Shown here in pieces: positions 48,090 to 59,120 of a DNA stretch of 64,000 nt. Numbering within the stretch: position 1 is the stretch's first letter; the number at the start of each line of letters is the position of its first letter. The notes under the pieces were generated by a model. That model did no database searches, had not been told where the DNA came from, and saw only the letters and a program-made list of their open reading frames with translations. The DNA lies in assembly GCA_949293555.1 (NCBI GenBank), contig CASFDV010000003.1, positions 257,614-321,613 on the forward strand. The letters run 5' to 3'. The DNA comes from an uncultured Bacillota bacterium. GTDB lineage: Bacteria > Bacillota_I > Bacilli_A > RFN20 > CAG-826. The position numbers were made by a program, and so were the translations under genes.

Positions 48090-48818
48090 CTACCCCTTCC
48101 TCGGGCGGAGGGCGTGCATGAGGATCCCTCCCGCCACGGCGACGTTGAGGGAGTCGATCCCCTCGATGGGGATCCGGAGGAGGAGCGAGGCGTGGGAAAG
48201 CGCCTCCTCGCTCACCCCCTGGCCCTCGCTTCCAAGGACGAGGGCGAGCTTCCCCTCCTCAGGGAAAGAGAGGTCCTCCCTCTCAACGCCTTGTAGAGAA
48301 GTGGTAATTATCTGGTAGTTGCTTCTCTCTAAAAGAGAGAAGAAATCATCCTTTCCTTCAATTGGCTCAATCACATTCAACGCGAAGATGGCCCCCTGGG
48401 AGGCCTGGAGGGCCTTCCTCCCGTAGGGGCGGGCGGAGCCCTTGAGGAAGACGACGTCATGGAAGGAGAAGGCGAGCGCGGTCCTGAGGAGGGTGCCCGC
48501 GTTCCCCGGGTCCTGCACCCCGTCGAGGACGAGGAGGCGAGATGAGGAAAGGGGCTTCCTCTCCCCCTTATGGCAGAGGGCGATCACCCCCTCGGGGGTC
48601 TTCTGGTCCGCCAGGGAGCGGAAAGCCTTTTCCGAAAGGATCACGTTCCGGACGGGGGAAGGATAGGGGGAAAGGGAAAGGATGGCCTCCGCCTTCTGGT
48701 ACCGGATCGCCTCTTCCGCCATATGGCGGCCTTCCGCGAGGAAGAGCTCTCCCTTCCCGTCGGCCTCCTTCCGGAGGGACATGAGCCAGGGGTTATGGGG
48801 GCTATCGATCCGTTCCAT
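48090..48818 (-). CDS. SpoU/TrmH-family rRNA 2'-O-methyltransferase
   Basis: 242 aa. N-terminal L30e-like substrate-binding domain, then the SPOUT knot with the three family motifs: LDGVQDPGNAGTLLRTA (about 94-110), LVLGSEGQGVSEE (about 193-205) and IPIEGIDSLNVAVAGGILMHAL. Likely modifies 23S rRNA (RlmB/AviRb-like). The start overlaps the YgjP-type gene by 17 bp. A short internal AT-rich patch (about 48296-48385) encodes a non-conserved linker. Confidence 0.88.
   Translation of the reverse strand: MERIDSPHNPWLMSLRKEADGKGELFLAEGRHMAEEAIRYQKAEAILSLSPYPSPVRNVILSEKAFRSLADQKTPEGVIALCHKGERKPLSSSRLLVLDGVQDPGNAGTLLRTALAFSFHDVVFLKGSARPYGRKALQASQGAIFALNVIEPIEGKDDFFSLLERSNYQIITTSLQGVEREDLSFPEEGKLALVLGSEGQGVSEEALSHASLLLRIPIEGIDSLNVAVAGGILMHALRPRKG
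48325..48345. repeat. Perfect inverted repeat inside the methyltransferase gene
   Basis: CTTCTCTC-TAAAA-GAGAGAAG within an AT-rich patch that stands out from the surrounding GC-rich codons. Confidence 0.6.
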
Positions 48819-49464
48819 CCTCGTCCTCCTTGAGGCAATCGCGCTTCAATAGCCTCCGCCGGCACTCCCAGTAGTCGGGGAAATGCACAAGGAGCTTCTT
48901 GTAGAAGAGGGGCCCGTGGTCCCTCCGGAAGTCGTGGGCGAGCTCGTGGGCGACGACGGAGTCGATCACGTGCTCCGGGTAATGGACGAGGGAAAGGGCG
49001 AAGGAAAGGGAGCCGTCCCGCGCGTTGTTGCTCCCGAACTGGCTCCGGTAGGGGCCGATCTTGATGGCCCGCTCCCCCTTCGTCCCCATCTTCCCCGCCC
49101 AGAGGGGCACCGCCTGGGAAAGGTACTCCCGGAGCCTCCGCTCCAAATAGCGTTCCTTGGAGCCATCCGCCATGAGGCTGAGCCCCGGGACCTTCTCCCT
49201 CTTCCCGAAAAGAAGGAGGGTGTCCCCGGTCTCGCGCTTCCTCTTCCACGTTTCCTCGGGGTACCTCCCCTTGTAGCGCGCCATGAGCCTCTCCAGCGCA
49301 GGATGCCAGAGGGACTCCGGGAGCCCTTTGGGGAAGCGGAAGAGGAAAAGCCCCCGCGTCTCGTCGTAGCGGAGCGAGTACGTCCTCCCGCCTTTCTTCG
49401 GGGAAAGAAGGATCCGTTCCCCGGTGGGGAGGGAGAAGGAAGGGGAGGGCTGGGAAAGTTCCAT
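48802..49464 (-). CDS. YgjP/DUF45-type metallopeptidase
   Basis: 220 aa from MELSQPSPSF. Zinc site VVAHELAHDFRRDHGPLFY (HELAH with a downstream His), and the family block RYLERRLREYLS. Cytoplasmic. Family members resemble M48/WLM-type metallopeptidases and their substrate is unclear. There is no SD; -10 TATAAT (49472-49477) ends 7 bp before the ATG. Divergent from the lipoprotein gene at 49533. Confidence 0.85.
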   Translation of the reverse strand: MELSQPSPSFSLPTGERILLSPKKGGRTYSLRYDETRGLFLFRFPKGLPESLWHPALERLMARYKGRYPEETWKRKRETGDTLLLFGKREKVPGLSLMADGSKERYLERRLREYLSQAVPLWAGKMGTKGERAIKIGPYRSQFGSNNARDGSLSFALSLVHYPEHVIDSVVAHELAHDFRRDHGPLFYKKLLVHFPDYWECRRRLLKRDCLKEDEDGTDR

Positions 49465-49532
49465 CTCTAGGATTATAGGTGGGGAGCGAAGAAAAATGCC
49501 CCGAAAGAACGTTCCTCCCATACAATCTTCTT

Positions 49533-50078
49533 ATGAAAGCGAAACTTACGGGAAGAACCGCCCTCCTCCTCCTTTCCTTCCTCCCCTTGTCCTCCCTTCT
49601 CCTTCCTTCGTGCGCATGGTCCACGGACGTCTACCGCATCATCGCCTGCCCCCTCACCCAAGGGAACCTCGTCTTCGAGGGCGAGGCCTCCCTATATCCC
49701 CTTGAGGAAGGGGAGGCATGGGGCCTCGAGCTCTCCCCTAGGAAATACTACGGGCTCAAGGTCGAAAGCCGCCTCTGCGGGGACAAGGACCCCCAAGGCG
49801 TCCTCGATCGCTCCTTCGCCCTTGACAAGGTCGTCCGGGTCCATCCCGGCAACGTCTTCGAGGTCGAATGGGACGCCCCGGCGATCGGCCAGGGGGTCCT
49901 TGCCTTCGACGTATTCGGGGTGGAGGGGACCTTCGGGATCGGGGGCTTCGACGAGGAGGGCGAGCTGGACTTCCATTACGGAACGATCTTCGTCCAGGAC
50001 CGCGCCGCGGAAGCTTTCAAAAGCAAGGTCCTCGAGATGGACCCGACCATGGACTGGGACGCGGTGCCCGACCTTTGA
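49533..50078 (+). CDS. Lipoprotein, unknown
   Basis: 181 aa. Signal peptide with lipobox LLPSC (Cys about residue 27). The rest is a beta-rich extracytoplasmic domain (LKVESRLCGDKDPQGVL, VLAFDVFGVEGTFGIGG) with no recognised family. No SD: -10 TACAAT (49521-49526) ends 6 bp before the ATG, so the mRNA is probably leaderless. A weak hairpin GGGCTT/AAGCCC follows the stop. Confidence 0.75.
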   Translation: MKAKLTGRTALLLLSFLPLSSLLLPSCAWSTDVYRIIACPLTQGNLVFEGEASLYPLEEGEAWGLELSPRKYYGLKVESRLCGDKDPQGVLDRSFALDKVVRVHPGNVFEVEWDAPAIGQGVLAFDVFGVEGTFGIGGFDEEGELDFHYGTIFVQDRAAEAFKSKVLEMDPTMDWDAVPDL

Positions 50079-50145
50079 GGGCTTTCTTCCCCAAGGAAGC
50101 CCTTTCGGGTGGAGGATGCCCTCCCTTTGTCCTAAAATCCCCGCG

Positions 50146-51156
50146 ATGGACAAGATTCTCGTAAGCGCCTGCCTCCTGGGCGACCGCTGCCGCTACGACG
50201 GGGAGGGAGGGGACCTCCCCATCCTCCGGAAGCTTCAGAAGAAGTACGACCTCGTGCCCTTCTGCCCCGAGGTGGAGGCGGGGCTCCCCGTGCCCCGCTC
50301 CCCCGCGGAGATCCTCCGGGGGAAGGTGGTGAGCAAGGAGGGGAAGGACCTCACCAAGGAATACGACATGGCCGCGGAGAAGGCGGTCCGCCTTTGCCGC
50401 CTCCTCGGGATCCGCATTGCGATCCTCAAGGAAAGCTCCCCCGCCTGCGGGCCCCGCAAGATCCACGACGGCACCTTCATGGGGGGCAAGGTCCCCGGGA
50501 TGGGGGTGACCGCCCGCGCGCTCGTCCAGTCCGGGGTGAAGGTCTACTCCGACGAGGACGCGCTCGGCTTCCTCCTCGAGGAAAGGAAGGACTCCTTCCT
50601 CCGCGGGAAGGAGGAAAGGAAGGGGGGCGCTCCCTCCTACGGGAAGAGGAGGAAGGAGGAGGAAGGGGCGCTCTTCCGCCTCTCCCCCGGGAAGGACGGG
50701 GACGGGAAGCCCCGGGGAGCGAGGAAGGGGAAGCCCTTCCGGAAGAAGGAAGGGGAAGCAGCATCCGAAGGACGCCCCTTCCATGGGAAGAAGGAATACC
50801 GGGGCAAGGACTTCCATGGGAAGAGGCCTTCCTACGGGAAGAAGGCCCCCTTCGCCCGGAAGGATGGGGAAGGCCCTGCAAGAGAAAAGGAAGAAAGGCC
50901 TTCCCACGGGAAGAAGGACTTCCATGGGAAGCGCCCGTCCTTCGGGAAGAAGCCTTCCTACGGGAAGAAGCCCTTCCACGGGGATCGCCCCCAAAGGGAA
51001 GGGGCGATGCGCCCGGAAGGAAGGAAGCCCCATGGAAAGAAGGACTTCCATGGGAAGAAGCCTTCCTATGGGAAGAAGGATTTCCATGGGAAGGGAGGCT
51101 TCCAGGGCAAGAAAGGCCGCGCCTTCCAGGGGAAGCCCCGGAAGAAGGAAGGATGA
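50146..51156 (+). CDS. DUF523 (TudS-like) protein with repetitive basic tail
   Basis: 336 aa. Residues 1-145 are a DUF523 domain: SACLLGDRCRYDG (Cys9, Cys15), PFCPEV (Cys40) and SPACGPRKIHDGTF (Cys101), the cysteines expected to hold an Fe-S cluster in thiouracil desulfurases. Residues about 150-336 are a disordered, strongly basic tail built of degenerate FHGK and PSYGKK units. The tail is not typical of the family (usually about 150 aa). No SD; -10 TAAAAT (50133-50138) ends 7 bp before the ATG. The stop overlaps the next gene (ATGA). Confidence 0.82.
   Translation: MDKILVSACLLGDRCRYDGEGGDLPILRKLQKKYDLVPFCPEVEAGLPVPRSPAEILRGKVVSKEGKDLTKEYDMAAEKAVRLCRLLGIRIAILKESSPACGPRKIHDGTFMGGKVPGMGVTARALVQSGVKVYSDEDALGFLLEERKDSFLRGKEERKGGAPSYGKRRKEEEGALFRLSPGKDGDGKPRGARKGKPFRKKEGEAASEGRPFHGKKEYRGKDFHGKRPSYGKKAPFARKDGEGPAREKEERPSHGKKDFHGKRPSFGKKPSYGKKPFHGDRPQREGAMRPEGRKPHGKKDFHGKKPSYGKKDFHGKGGFQGKKGRAFQGKPRKKEG
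50775..51140 (+). repeat. Degenerate coding repeats (FHGK/PSYGKK units)
   Basis: The DNA repeatedly uses TTCCATGGGAAGA and CCTTCCTACGGGAAGAAG-like units in several orders. Repeats keep the reading frame, so they are a protein-level array rather than a CRISPR or VNTR outside genes. Confidence 0.8.
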
Positions 51157-51680
51157 GGAAGAGGATCCTCGCGAGGAGGGCGCCCATCAGGCGCCCTCTT
51201 TCGCATGTGCGGCCGATGCTCGGAAGCGCGATCCTCGCCGCGCTCTCCGTCCTCGCCGGGCTCTTCCTCACGATCCCCTACCCGGGGGGAGGGCGCTTCT
51301 CCTTCGGGGACGCCTTCCTCATCCTCGGGGGGCTCCTCCTTCCTTGGAAGGAAGCGCTCCTGGGGGCGATGCTCGGGGGCGCGCTCCTCGATCTTCTCGG
51401 AGGCTCCTTCTTCTACCTTCCCTGGACGATCCTCGCCAAGGGCGCGCTTGCCCTCGCCGCGATCCTCGCGCGGAAGCTTTCCCATGGGAAGGGATGGGCG
51501 CTCCCCATCCTCATGCTCCCCGCGCCCATCCTCCAGGCGGCCATCTACCTCGTCCCCTACCGCCTCCTTCTCGAGGAAGGGGCCCTCGTCCTCTTCCTCA
51601 TGGACCTCGTCCAGGGGTTCGGGGGGCTTGCGCTCGCCATCCTCGCCGAAAGGCCCCTCAGGGCCCTCCGGAAGGACTAG
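51153..51680 (+). CDS. ECF transporter S component-like membrane protein
   Basis: 175 aa, five to six membrane helices after a basic N-terminus. The pattern SFGDAFLILGGLLLPWKEALLGAMLGGALLDLLGG is typical of vitamin/cofactor S components (Gly-rich helix packing, GDA motif). It would need the EcfAAT module encoded elsewhere. Substrate unknown. Translationally coupled to the DUF523 gene (4-bp overlap), which suggests a shared pathway, possibly a sulfur- or pyrimidine-related nutrient. Confidence 0.65.
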   Translation: MRKRILARRAPIRRPLSHVRPMLGSAILAALSVLAGLFLTIPYPGGGRFSFGDAFLILGGLLLPWKEALLGAMLGGALLDLLGGSFFYLPWTILAKGALALAAILARKLSHGKGWALPILMLPAPILQAAIYLVPYRLLLEEGALVLFLMDLVQGFGGLALAILAERPLRALRKD

Positions 51681-54550: not shown

Positions 54551-56260
54551 CTAGCGCACCGCCAGGAGGTAGCTCTCGAAGGGGCGGAGCCTCATCACCC
54601 TCTCCGGGGAAAGGAGGACGCCCTCGTAGTTATGGAGGAGGATGTCGGCGATCTGGAAGTTGAAGGAGAAATAGACGTCGTAGGGACGCATGTTGGTGAT
54701 GACGAGGAGGTTCCTCTGCCCCCGGTGGAGGTAGGCGAAGGCGTCCTGGTGGTTCCAGTCGACCCATTCGAGCCTTCCCTCGCGGACGATCTTCCCCCAG
54801 GGCCCCTTCCGGATCCGAATTGCCTCCTTGTAGAAATTGAGGACGGAGTCGGGGTCCTTCTCCTCGTCCTCGACGTTGACCCCGAGGAGGTGGTCATGGT
54901 TCATCGGGAAGAGGGGCTTATGCGAGGAGAAGCCGCCCCACTCCCCCCTGTCCCATGGGATCGGGGAGCGCGCGTTCGTCCGCCCCGTCCGCCGGAAGAA
55001 GGAGAGGATCTCCTCCTCGGAGTAGCCTTCCTTCCGGTAGGAGTCCACCGCCTCCTTCGTCCCGGCGTCGTGGAGGAAGTCCCCGACGGGCGCGTCCATG
55101 AGGTCGTCCATCCCGAGCTCCTCCCCCTGGAAGAGGAAAGGGGTGCCGTAGAGGAAGAGGAGGGTGAGGAGGAGGGCCTTCGCCGATTCCTTCCGGTATT
55201 CCCGGGAGCCGTACTGGCGGAGCACCCTGGGGTGGTCGTGGTTGCACCAGTAGAGGGGCATGTCGCACGTCTCGTGGCAGGCCTCGTACCAGCGCGAGAA
55301 ATTATGCTTGAGGAGCATGACGTCCGTCCGGATCTCCTCGTCCTTCTTCCCGATCGAGCCGAAGTTCCCGTTGTTCCAGACGGTGTCGAAGTTGAAGAGG
55401 AGGTCGAGCGGACCCTGGCCTCTTCGCGCCATCCTCTCCCCTTCGGAGGGCTGGATCGAGCCTCCCACCTCCCCGATGAGGAGGGCGTCCCTCCCCTTGA
55501 GGGCCTTCCTCCGGAACTCCTGGAGGTAGCCCATGAGCTCGGGGCGGTTCGAGAAGCGCGAGGGGTCGAGGACGTAGCCGTCCCCGTCCTCGTCCGGGAG
55601 GGGGGAGTCCGCGAAGGACATGTCCTTGGCAAGATGCGCGGTCGCGTCCATCCTAAAGCCGTCCACCCCCATGTCGAGGTAGGAGGAGGCGATGCCTGCC
55701 ATGAGGTCCTGCACCTTCTCGTTCGACCAGTCGAGGTCGGGCATCCCGCGCCCGAAGGAATGGAAGTAGAACTCGTCCGTCCCCGGGACCCTCTCCCAGG
55801 CGGAGGGCGAGAAGAAGGAGCCCCAGTTGTTCGGGGGGAGGAGGCGGTCCCCGTCCTTCCTTCCCTTCCGGAAGATGTAGTAGGAGCGTTCCTCGCACAT
55901 CGGGTCCTGGAGGGCCTTCTTGAACCAAGGGTGCTCCCTCGAGGTGTGGTTCATCACGAGGTCGAGGAGGATCCTGATCCCGCGCGCGTGCGCTTCCTCC
56001 AGGAGGAGGCGGAGGTCCTCCATCGTCCCGAAGAGAGGGTTGATCCTATGGAAGTCCCTCACGTCGTAGCCGTCGTCCTCCATAGGGCTATCGAAGATCG
56101 GGCATAGCCAGAGAAAGGTGACCCCCAGCTCCTCCAGGTAGGGGAGCTTGGCGAGGATCCCCTTGAGATCCCCGACCCCGTCCCCGTCGGAGTCCTTGAA
56201 CGAGGCGGGATAGCAGATGTAGCCGATCCCGTCCTGCCACCAGCGCCCGCCTTCCATCAT
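54551..56260 (-). CDS. GH13 oligo-1,6-glucosidase/alpha-glucosidase
   Basis: 569 aa, no signal peptide, cytoplasmic. GH13_31-like architecture: GYICYPASFKDSDGDGVGDL near the start, region I DLVMNHTS (about 98-105), region II GFRMDATAHL (nucleophile Asp, about 200), region III LIGEVGG (acid/base Glu), region IV NHDHPR. Hydrolyses isomaltose- or maltose-type oligosaccharides. Preceded by -10 TATACT (56283-56288) and a 22-nt leader with AGGA. Confidence 0.9.
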   Translation of the reverse strand: MMEGGRWWQDGIGYICYPASFKDSDGDGVGDLKGILAKLPYLEELGVTFLWLCPIFDSPMEDDGYDVRDFHRINPLFGTMEDLRLLLEEAHARGIRILLDLVMNHTSREHPWFKKALQDPMCEERSYYIFRKGRKDGDRLLPPNNWGSFFSPSAWERVPGTDEFYFHSFGRGMPDLDWSNEKVQDLMAGIASSYLDMGVDGFRMDATAHLAKDMSFADSPLPDEDGDGYVLDPSRFSNRPELMGYLQEFRRKALKGRDALLIGEVGGSIQPSEGERMARRGQGPLDLLFNFDTVWNNGNFGSIGKKDEEIRTDVMLLKHNFSRWYEACHETCDMPLYWCNHDHPRVLRQYGSREYRKESAKALLLTLLFLYGTPFLFQGEELGMDDLMDAPVGDFLHDAGTKEAVDSYRKEGYSEEEILSFFRRTGRTNARSPIPWDRGEWGGFSSHKPLFPMNHDHLLGVNVEDEEKDPDSVLNFYKEAIRIRKGPWGKIVREGRLEWVDWNHQDAFAYLHRGQRNLLVITNMRPYDVYFSFNFQIADILLHNYEGVLLSPERVMRLRPFESYLLAVR

Positions 56261-56282
56261 GCGATCCTGCTTTCTGAGGAAA

Positions 56283-56288
56283 GTATAG
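56283..56288 (-). promoter_or_regulatory. -10 element of the GH13-pucR operon
   Basis: TATACT on the minus strand, 22 bp before the ATG. No matching -35. Further upstream, AAAGCCGC-N6-GCGGCTTT (about 56315-56336) looks like a bidirectional terminator stem. Confidence 0.4.
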
Positions 56289-56508
56289 ACGTAATGGCAA
56301 GACCTTTCCGAAAAAGCCGCGCGGCGGCGGCTTTCCCCAGCCGGGCCGACGTGCTTCGAGCACGCTTAAGCGCTAGCTCGGGTCCCGGCGCGGTATACAG
56401 CCTGGCGAGCCAGCTGCATCCAGATCTTATTGGAGGAAGAGGCTCTCGCCAAGAGGCCTCAATCCCTCGGGCGGACTGGGCGCGAGGGAGCGGACGACCA
56501 AATAAAAG

Positions 56509-56860
56509 GGCACTCCACAATATTCTGTGGTCTGGCGGCGCCCTCCGCCAGGCGGCAGCCGCCCCGTAGACATCGTCAGGAGCCGTAGGAAGTACCAGCC
56601 GATCACCTACTTCATGGCGATCCCGCGCGATGAGAGGGAGCGCGTGCTGTTCTTCAACCTCGGCATGCACGAGGGCTACCGGGCTCTCAAGAGGGCCTGC
56701 TTCCCCTGGGCCGCCGACGTGCTGGACCTCTTCCACCTCGCGGGGCTCTTGGCCAACGCCATGCGTCTCGAGAGGGCCAGGAGGCGCCTTCTGGTGATCT
56801 TCGGGCGAGCCCGCCCCGACCACACAAACCACACTGGACCACAGAATATTGTGGAGCGCC
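56509..56860. mobile_element. Internally deleted ISL3-type insertion element
   Basis: 352 bp. Terminal inverted repeats GGCACTCCACAATATTCTGT (56509-) and, reverse-complemented, GGCGCTCCACAATATTCTGT (to 56860), about 24 bp with one mismatch. It is flanked by 8-bp direct repeats AATAAAAG (56501-56508, 56861-56868), the target duplication length of ISL3. Inside, on the plus strand, about 90 codons resemble the middle of an ISL3 transposase (VLFFNLGMHEGYRALKRACF, AADVLDLFHLAGLLANAMRL); the rest of the gene is gone. It is non-autonomous. Confidence 0.82.
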
Positions 56861-56865
56861 AATAA
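56614..56865 (+). pseudogene. ISL3-family transposase fragment
   Basis: An open stretch (ATG at 56614) within the element, homologous by eye to the catalytic middle of ISL3 transposases (a DxYxxY-like HEGYRAL and DLFHLAGLLANAMR for the DRFHVxxxxNxA motif). N- and C-terminal parts are missing, so it cannot encode an active enzyme. Confidence 0.65.
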
Positions 56866-56868
56866 AAG

Positions 56869-56990
56869 GCCCCCGCATCGCGTACACTCCGTTGCCGGCG
56901 ACGCACATTCAAGTGGCGGGAGCAAGCCCATCATACGCTTCCTTCGAGCCAGGGGGTTCCCGGACAGGCAGGCTCGTCGCGAATCCCGGC
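56869..56990. other. Intergenic remnant between ISL3 element and malK2 terminator
   Basis: No gene seen. About 50 bp (56889-56938, with GGCGACGCAC) resemble a segment near 47557-47605, so both may be pieces of the same decayed repeat. Confidence 0.35.
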
Positions 56991-57023
56991 GAAAGGAAAG
57001 GGCCCCTCCTTCCGGAGAGGCCC
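56991..57023 (-). terminator. Terminator after the second malK
   Basis: 10-bp stem GGGCCTCTCC/GGAGGGGCCC with a GGAA loop, then TTTCCTTTC on the minus strand. Confidence 0.85.
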
Positions 57024-57029
57024 TGGAGG

Positions 57030-59120
57030 CTACTTCTTCCTGAGGACGAGCTTCCCGTAGTCGAGCGCGTAGGCCGGGCGCTTCTCGCCGAAGCAGCTGT
57101 CCTCCGCCTCGCCCTTGATGGTGAGGTAGTCCTTGAAGCCTTTGACGTTCGCGTAGAGGATCGTGCAGTCCCCGAGGTGGTCCTCGTTGACCGGGTGGAT
57201 GCGGAAGGTCTTCCCGCGGAGAGCTTCCTTCCTCGCCTTCTCCTCGGCCTTCTTCCGGGCCTTCTCCTCCTTTTCCTTGGCCTTCCGGGCCTCCTTCTCC
57301 AAGAGGCGGCGCTTCTTCTCCTCCTCGATCTCCGCGGGATCCTTCCCGGCGAGGCTCCTCTTCCTCTCGGCGCGGAGGACCATCAGGCGGTCCCAGCCCT
57401 CGCGGAGGAGGAGGGAGAGCTTCTTTTTCTTCTCCCTGGCCTTCTTCCCGCGCGAGGCCTTGATGAAGGCGTCGTAGGGGATCTCGAGCTCGTAGGAGCC
57501 GATCTCCCATTCCTCGGGGCAGAGGAGGTCGAATGAGGCGAAGCGGAGGTGCTTCCTGCCGCCCTTGAGGACGACTTCCGCGTCCACGAGGTTCCTCGTG
57601 TAGGGATGGAGGGCGATGAGCCTATGGCCATGCCCCTCGTCGACGAGGACGGCCTCCTTCCGGGAGACATAGAGGTCGATCTCCTCGCCGGGGGCCTTCT
57701 CGACCTTCGGGAACTTCGCGCCGACGTAGCTCTTCCTTCCCGGGAGCGAGAAGAAGAGGAGCGTCTCCTCCTTTCCTTCCTCGAGGGAGACGACCTTCGC
57801 CTTGAAATGGAGGTCGTCCTCCCCGGCGGGCAGCAGGTGGAAGGAACGGGATCCTACCATCAGGGCGCACTTCCCGTCCTTCTTCCCCCTCATCCCGGGG
57901 ACGAGGCGCTCCATCTCCTCCGGGGAAAGGGCGAAGGAGGCGCCAAGGCAATCGACCCTGCCCGTCTCCCCGTCGAGCGTGGCCTCGAGGTAGTTCTTGC
58001 TCATGAGCCCGGCGATGCGGCGCCCCTCGCCCTCGCCCTCGAAGAGGTGGAACCTCCTCTCGTCGAGACGCACCGGGAGCGTTTCCCCTTCCTTGACCCC
58101 GAGCCTTCCGTCCGCGCGGAGGAGGAGGCGGATGCGGCTGCCCTTCAGATAGCAGTAGAGGATGAGCTCGGCCCCGAGCTTCTCGATCATGTCGACGACG
58201 ATCTCGAACTGCGGGTTCTCCTTGTCGATGATGACGTCCTCGGGGCGGATCCCGAGGCGGACCTTGAGCCCGTCCTTCGCCTCCTCGGAAAGGAGGCTCC
58301 CCATCGTCTTCCCGAGGGGGATCCTTAGCTCGTAGTCGCCCTCGCGGACGTAGCAGGACCATTCCCCTTCCTTCTCCTCGAGCGTCCCGTCGAAGAGGTT
58401 CATCTGGGGCGTCCCGAGGAAGGTCGCGACAAAGACGTTCGCCGGGTGGTCGTAAAGGTTGGCCGGCGTGTCCACCTGCTGGATGAGGCCGTCCTTCATG
58501 ACGACGATCTCCGTCCCCATCGTCATCGCCTCGGTCTGGTCGTGGGTGACGTAGACGAAGGTCGTCCCGAGGCGGCGGTGGAGCTTGCTGATCTCCGCGC
58601 GCATCTGGACGCGGAGCTTGGCGTCGAGGTTCGAGAGCGGCTCGTCCAGGAGGAACACCTTCGGCTCGCGCACGATGGAGCGCCCGAGGGCGACCCTCTG
58701 GCGCTGGCCGCCGGAGAGGGCGCGGGGCTTCCTCGTGAGGTAGGGCTCCAGGCCGAGGATCTTCGCGGCCGCCTTGATGCGGCGGTCGATCTCGTCGGGC
58801 GGAAGCTTCTGCATCCTGAGCCCGAAGGCCATGTTCTCGTACACGGTCTTGTGCGGGTAGAGCGCGTAGTTCTGGAACACCATCGTGATGTCGCGCTTGC
58901 TCGGCGGCAGGTCGTTGACCCGCTCCCCGTCGATGTAAAGGTTCCCCGCGCTGATTTCCTCGAGCCCGGCGATCATGCGGAGGGTCGTCGACTTCCCGCA
59001 GCCGGAGGGGCCGACGAAGACGACGAACTCCTTGTCCTTGATGTCGAGGCTGAGGTCGGTGATGGCCCGGACTCCCCCGGGATACACCTTGTAGACGTGC
59101 TCGAAGCTGACGCTTGCCAT
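57030..59120 (-). CDS. Sugar ABC ATPase (MalK-like, second copy) with ~325-aa C-terminal extension
   Basis: 696 aa, nearly twice normal. Residues 1-370 are a complete MalK: Walker [10 protein letters not shown] (38-46), [13 protein letters not shown], Walker [14 protein letters not shown]-loop THDQTEA, and TOBE domain with GIRPEDV. Residues about 370-555 are extra beta-rich modules. Residues 556-635 are a highly charged Lys/Glu/Ala coiled coil, and the last 60 residues form a small unknown domain. The frame is clean. It is the last gene of an operon that encodes a LacI regulator and PfkB kinase. Confidence 0.9.
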   Translation of the reverse strand: MASVSFEHVYKVYPGGVRAITDLSLDIKDKEFVVFVGPSGCGKSTTLRMIAGLEEISAGNLYIDGERVNDLPPSKRDITMVFQNYALYPHKTVYENMAFGLRMQKLPPDEIDRRIKAAAKILGLEPYLTRKPRALSGGQRQRVALGRSIVREPKVFLLDEPLSNLDAKLRVQMRAEISKLHRRLGTTFVYVTHDQTEAMTMGTEIVVMKDGLIQQVDTPANLYDHPANVFVATFLGTPQMNLFDGTLEEKEGEWSCYVREGDYELRIPLGKTMGSLLSEEAKDGLKVRLGIRPEDVIIDKENPQFEIVVDMIEKLGAELILYCYLKGSRIRLLLRADGRLGVKEGETLPVRLDERRFHLFEGEGEGRRIAGLMSKNYLEATLDGETGRVDCLGASFALSPEEMERLVPGMRGKKDGKCALMVGSRSFHLLPAGEDDLHFKAKVVSLEEGKEETLLFFSLPGRKSYVGAKFPKVEKAPGEEIDLYVSRKEAVLVDEGHGHRLIALHPYTRNLVDAEVVLKGGRKHLRFASFDLLCPEEWEIGSYELEIPYDAFIKASRGKKAREKKKKLSLLLREGWDRLMVLRAERKRSLAGKDPAEIEEEKKRRLLEKEARKAKEKEEKARKKAEEKARKEALRGKTFRIHPVNEDHLGDCTILYANVKGFKDYLTIKGEAEDSCFGEKRPAYALDYGKLVLRKK

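Follow-up and report, generated by a model that had tools for sequence, protein, structure and literature searches.

A lineage-specific TudS with a long, disordered basic tail: a possible RNA tether

Why should a TudS enzyme, whose characterised members are single domains of about 150 amino acids, carry some 190 additional disordered and basic residues at its C terminus? This question is raised by a gene (Table 1) in the window, i.e., the whole 64,000-nucleotide stretch of DNA analyzed here, which an earlier note had assigned to the TudS (DUF523) family. The assignment holds. The Pfam family PF04463 (2-thiour_desulf) matches residues 4-138 over its full length with an E-value of 6.6e-40 and a score of 136.8 bits, well above the curated cut-off of 34.7. 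When the protein is aligned with TudS (6z92), C9, C40 and C101 coincide with the [4Fe-4S] cluster ligands C10, C43 and C104, and E42 and S98 with the catalytic residues E45 and S101. Residues in contact with the nucleotide (R16, Y17 and P99) are also present, and Tyr110 of TudS is represented by His107. Cluster, catalytic and substrate residues are invariant or almost invariant in sequence sets A1 and A2. The predicted structure matches the TudS fold (TMt 0.86-0.89, rmsd 1.7-1.8, 43-44% identity in the structural alignment) with an AlphaFold2 pLDDT of about 93 over most of the domain. The window protein thus has the fold, the cluster cysteines, the catalytic Glu and Ser and the RYDG motif in common with TudS, and conserved residues and fold together suggest that its domain uses a [4Fe-4S] cluster to take sulfur off thiolated uridine compounds. 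It differs in size: a single domain of about 150 amino acids is typical for, albeit not strictly defining of, TudS, whereas the window protein with its tail comprises 336.

Table 1 Features at the TudS locus (positions are those of the window).
Feature	Position	Strand	Evidence and remarks
SpoU-family RNA methyltransferase	48090..48818	-	PF00588; kept beside the YgjP-like gene (synteny)
YgjP-like metallopeptidase	48802..49521	-	PF01863; conserved divergent neighbour in tailed and tail-less relatives
Putative small lipoprotein	49533..50078	+	direct reading; lipobox LLPSC, no Pfam match
TudS gene with tail	50146 (ATG)-51156 (TGA)	+	open frame, 336 aa
TudS (DUF523) catalytic domain	50146..50574	+	residues 1-143; PF04463, TudS fold
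Disordered basic tail	50575..51153	+	residues 144-336, 193 aa; 12 [FYH]GK units, net positive
ECF transporter S component	51153..51680	+	175 aa; PF07155, E-value 1e-11, 45.6 bits (cut-off 26.7)

The tail had been noted before as an abnormal extension of 185 residues. It is indeed long and abnormal, but its length is 193, the lower count having started eight residues further on; 34 tail-less relatives end at 143-151 residues. The proposed disorder agrees with a pLDDT of around 50, and only two short helices (150-158 and 168-175) are predicted past residue 145. The proposed basic aromatic-Gly-Lys units are equally evident: the dozen [FYH]GK units compare with a mean of 0.97 when the same letters are shuffled 5000 times, no shuffle giving more than 6. 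Across 47 sampled tails, the median fraction of K+R is 0.34 (range 0.23-0.39) and that of the aliphatic residues ILVM 0.03, as compared with 0.14 and 0.26 in the TudS domain. Aromatic residues plus His amount to about 0.11, acidic residues are interspersed (median D+E 0.14), and all tails carry a net positive charge. With its predicted disorder, net positive charge and low aliphatic content, the window tail agrees in these traits with basic disordered tails of the RNase R type. Its sequence changes fast, such that the tails of different species often fail to match each other, while composition is kept. Such a pattern would be what one usually sees where selection acts on the bulk properties of a disordered segment.

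The tail is a genuine coding part of the gene. A frameshift or an assembly error as its origin is excluded by independent assemblies and by the constraint on the reading frame. Relatives lacking the tail together with signs of an artefact, which the earlier note had named as grounds for giving up the idea, were not seen: every TudS from the same genus is tailed. Specifically, all 32 same-genus genomes with a TudS match encode a basic tail, of 30-261 residues, and five further genomes of the genus lack a TudS match. In a second genus, which includes Candidatus Alloenteromonas pullistercoris, open-frame lengths indicate a tail in all 27 listed members; about 15 of these proteins were actually read and have tails of 23-194 residues. 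The tailed clade consists of uncultured Bacilli, mostly from gut and rumen. Tail length in the 47 sampled members ranges from 23 to 261 and is never zero. In a tree of 81 TudS domains the tail requires a single change (support 97/84), as it does in 94% of the bootstrap trees, and open frames are mostly short in other families of the order. The simplest reading is therefore that the tail was apparently acquired a single time, in the ancestor that both genera share. Elsewhere in the class, none of eight TudS loci with long frames that were read had such a tail; their surplus consisted of RudS-like C-terminal domains, recognised by eye, or of an upstream open frame. The gene is best explained as the lone, vertically inherited TudS of these bacteria. 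As far as the literature searched shows, where nothing was found that combines TudS with 'C-terminal tail', we are dealing with a previously undescribed, lineage-specific and conserved variant of a known enzyme.

The tail appears peculiar to TudS. Tail queries against the own genome matched only the window TudS, and in six-frame searches across the genus every match lay inside TudS, although the bias correction of HMMER might mask dissimilar basic tails in such searches. The lone match outside TudS, in a genome of the second genus, was marginal (E-value 0.065). When 464 kb of the own genome, about 35%, were scanned in six frames, no other Phe/Tyr-Gly-Lys tail was detected; the Lys-rich stretches seen were ribosomal-protein-like, apart from a few others. 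Scan and tail queries together speak against a genome-wide habit of adding such tails. The likeness to helicase tails suggested in the earlier note was not found in the own genome, whose DEAD-box helicase ends in a basic stretch free of F/Y-G-K units. ThiI, with an open frame of 579 in the own genome, was considered as a second tailed protein and rejected: its surplus is an upstream open frame and its C terminus is normal. In C2 of the same genome, two long frames (~380205-383468, L178, and 494119-497487, L183) are Lys-rich near their C termini and lack aromatic-Gly units.

In principle, a tail of this kind could have arisen by weakly selected slippage, 18- and 36-bp repeats growing and shrinking and any soluble basic coil being tolerated or mildly aiding solubility. 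Tandem Repeats Finder (TRF) indeed reports imperfect 18- and 36-bp DNA repeats at 50889-50982 and 51030-51115, tail length varies greatly (23-261), and indels separate near relatives. Synonymous divergence in the window tail also exceeds that of the domain by a factor of about three, with a lower GC3 (0.78 versus 0.94), which is in keeping with slippage; repeat exchange or misalignment may contribute to the higher dS. On the other hand, the tail is retained by all 47 sampled clade members, its composition is conserved and its dN/dS lies far below 1. Values for the tail are 0.20-0.30 among the three nearest species and 0.03-0.42 over 12 close pairs (pairs with finite values), and in comparison with the two nearest species the tail yields 0.20 and 0.27, similar to the domain with 0.24 and 0.41. 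The tail is thus coding and under amino-acid constraint, and we regard slippage as an unlikely explanation.

What, then, might be selected? Stand-alone TudS favours 4-thio-UMP, which stems from tRNA decay, and is inactive on a thiolated mini-tRNA (PMC10611767), whereas RudS, in which TudS is fused to the tRNA-binding part DUF1722, strips s4U from tRNA (PMC11417400). Judged by E-value, 60 of 61 genomes encode ThiI, the maker of s4U (59 of them with a match above the cut-off), so that s4U is presumably present, while DUF1722 (PF08349) occurs neither in the window protein nor in any of the 61 genomes. In combination with the biochemistry of TudS and RudS, this makes an RNA tether the simplest reading of the tail, and we assign it a probability of roughly 0.4. 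By means of the charge of Lys and Arg and the stacking of Phe, Tyr and His, the tail would make loose, multivalent contacts with tRNA, rRNA or ribosomes and would hold the enzyme where s4U-containing tRNA is presumably degraded, such that 4-thio-UMP, the probable substrate, could have its sulfur removed before recycling carries it into UTP pools. Such tethering, proposed already in the earlier note, plausibly fits the biochemistry of a family whose substrates are tRNA-derived and one member of which, RudS, is TudS with a tRNA-binding part. A precedent is provided by RNase R, whose disordered Lys-rich tail increases RNA affinity and is required for recruitment to stalled ribosomes (PMC3949413). 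Both are flexible basic tails, in RNase R on an enzyme of RNA turnover; however, the enzymes are unrelated, the aromatic-Gly units belong to the TudS tail and an RNA role of the latter is putative. Several points count against the tether. The tail has no homology to any proven RNA-binding segment, and polyphosphate, DNA and anionic lipid are further ligands of basic tails. Stand-alone TudS has a free nucleotide as its substrate and does not require contact with RNA. Furthermore, a long tail is not essential, because some members retain only 23-47 residues, and the tails contain acidic residues as well.

A more far-reaching possibility is that the tail replaces DUF1722 and brings the TudS domain to intact tRNA, where s4U8 would be erased in place. 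As in RudS, the TudS domain of the window protein is extended at its C terminus by a part that possibly contacts tRNA, an added tRNA-binding part is exactly what sets RudS apart from TudS (PMC11417400), and DUF1722 is missing throughout while ThiI is present. The latter combination, however, is also found in tail-less families of the same order, and ThiI is thus not discriminating. In place of DUF1722 the extension is disordered and repetitive, and a disordered tail offers no obvious tRNA specificity. Moreover, two RudS residues are unmatched: Asn26, which contacts U45 of tRNA, is replaced by Asp18 as in plain TudS (RYDG; motif spacing), and the second catalytic serine, Ser113, by Ala100. We therefore consider this alternative unlikely, and doubt likewise that this gut clade independently turned TudS into a tRNA s4U eraser by way of a disordered RNA-binding tail instead of DUF1722. 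If it were true, an s4U eraser could arise without a folded tRNA-recognition domain; the ability to act on tRNA is what distinguishes RudS from TudS. Tail lengths among the orthologues at one conserved locus run from 0 through 23-47 and about 90 to as many as 261 residues, a natural series that is ready for testing whether a disordered basic tail alone shifts the location or substrate of an RNA-modification enzyme.

The tail may also serve phase separation or polyphosphate binding rather than specific RNA contacts. Its composition resembles a sticker-spacer arrangement, as in the peptides [KGKGG]5 and [RGXGG]5 (X = Y or F), which condense with RNA (PMC8595643), and RNase R and YihI have disordered, Lys-rich stretches to which polyphosphate binds (PMC12345225). 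Since such tails condense with RNA, this explanation overlaps with the RNA tether, and on its own it appears quite improbable.

The TudS locus itself is conserved. On its 48090-50146 side, the divergent YgjP-like and SpoU genes accompany tailed and tail-less TudS alike, and an apparent pheS lies downstream in several genomes (neighbours in relatives were recognised by eye). The lipoprotein gene sits between the YgjP-like gene and TudS, and a lipoprotein-like gene is found near the same spot in locus L090. The start of the ECF S gene overlaps the TudS stop codon by 4 nt (ATGA), and the profile of its relatives matches the S components 4hzu_S and 3p5n_A (riboflavin) as well as several NCBIfam S families. 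The coupling of enzyme and ECF S component put forward in the earlier note stands as adjacency, not as an obligatory partnership. Elsewhere, too, the neighbourhood recurs in part: ECF S lies directly downstream of TudS at 20 of 47 tailed loci (window included) and at none of 34 tail-less ones, and was not found at the other 27 tailed loci, three of which have less than 0.9 kb of downstream sequence. Pairing is thus a trait of part of the clade, and with just 20 paired loci the tail does not depend on ECF S. That the tail docks TudS to the adjacent transporter component, linking uptake to desulfuration, would suit the overlap and the restriction of the pair to tailed loci, but is very improbable given the many unpaired tailed loci and tail lengths that do not follow ECF S (261 with, 177 without, 23 with). 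Further downstream, within a 417-aa frame (56257-57510, minus strand), a match to the Rfam DUF3800-I RNA, which may be due to chance in GC-rich coding DNA, was recorded at 56305-56424 on the minus strand with 50.2 bits (gathering threshold 44.2).
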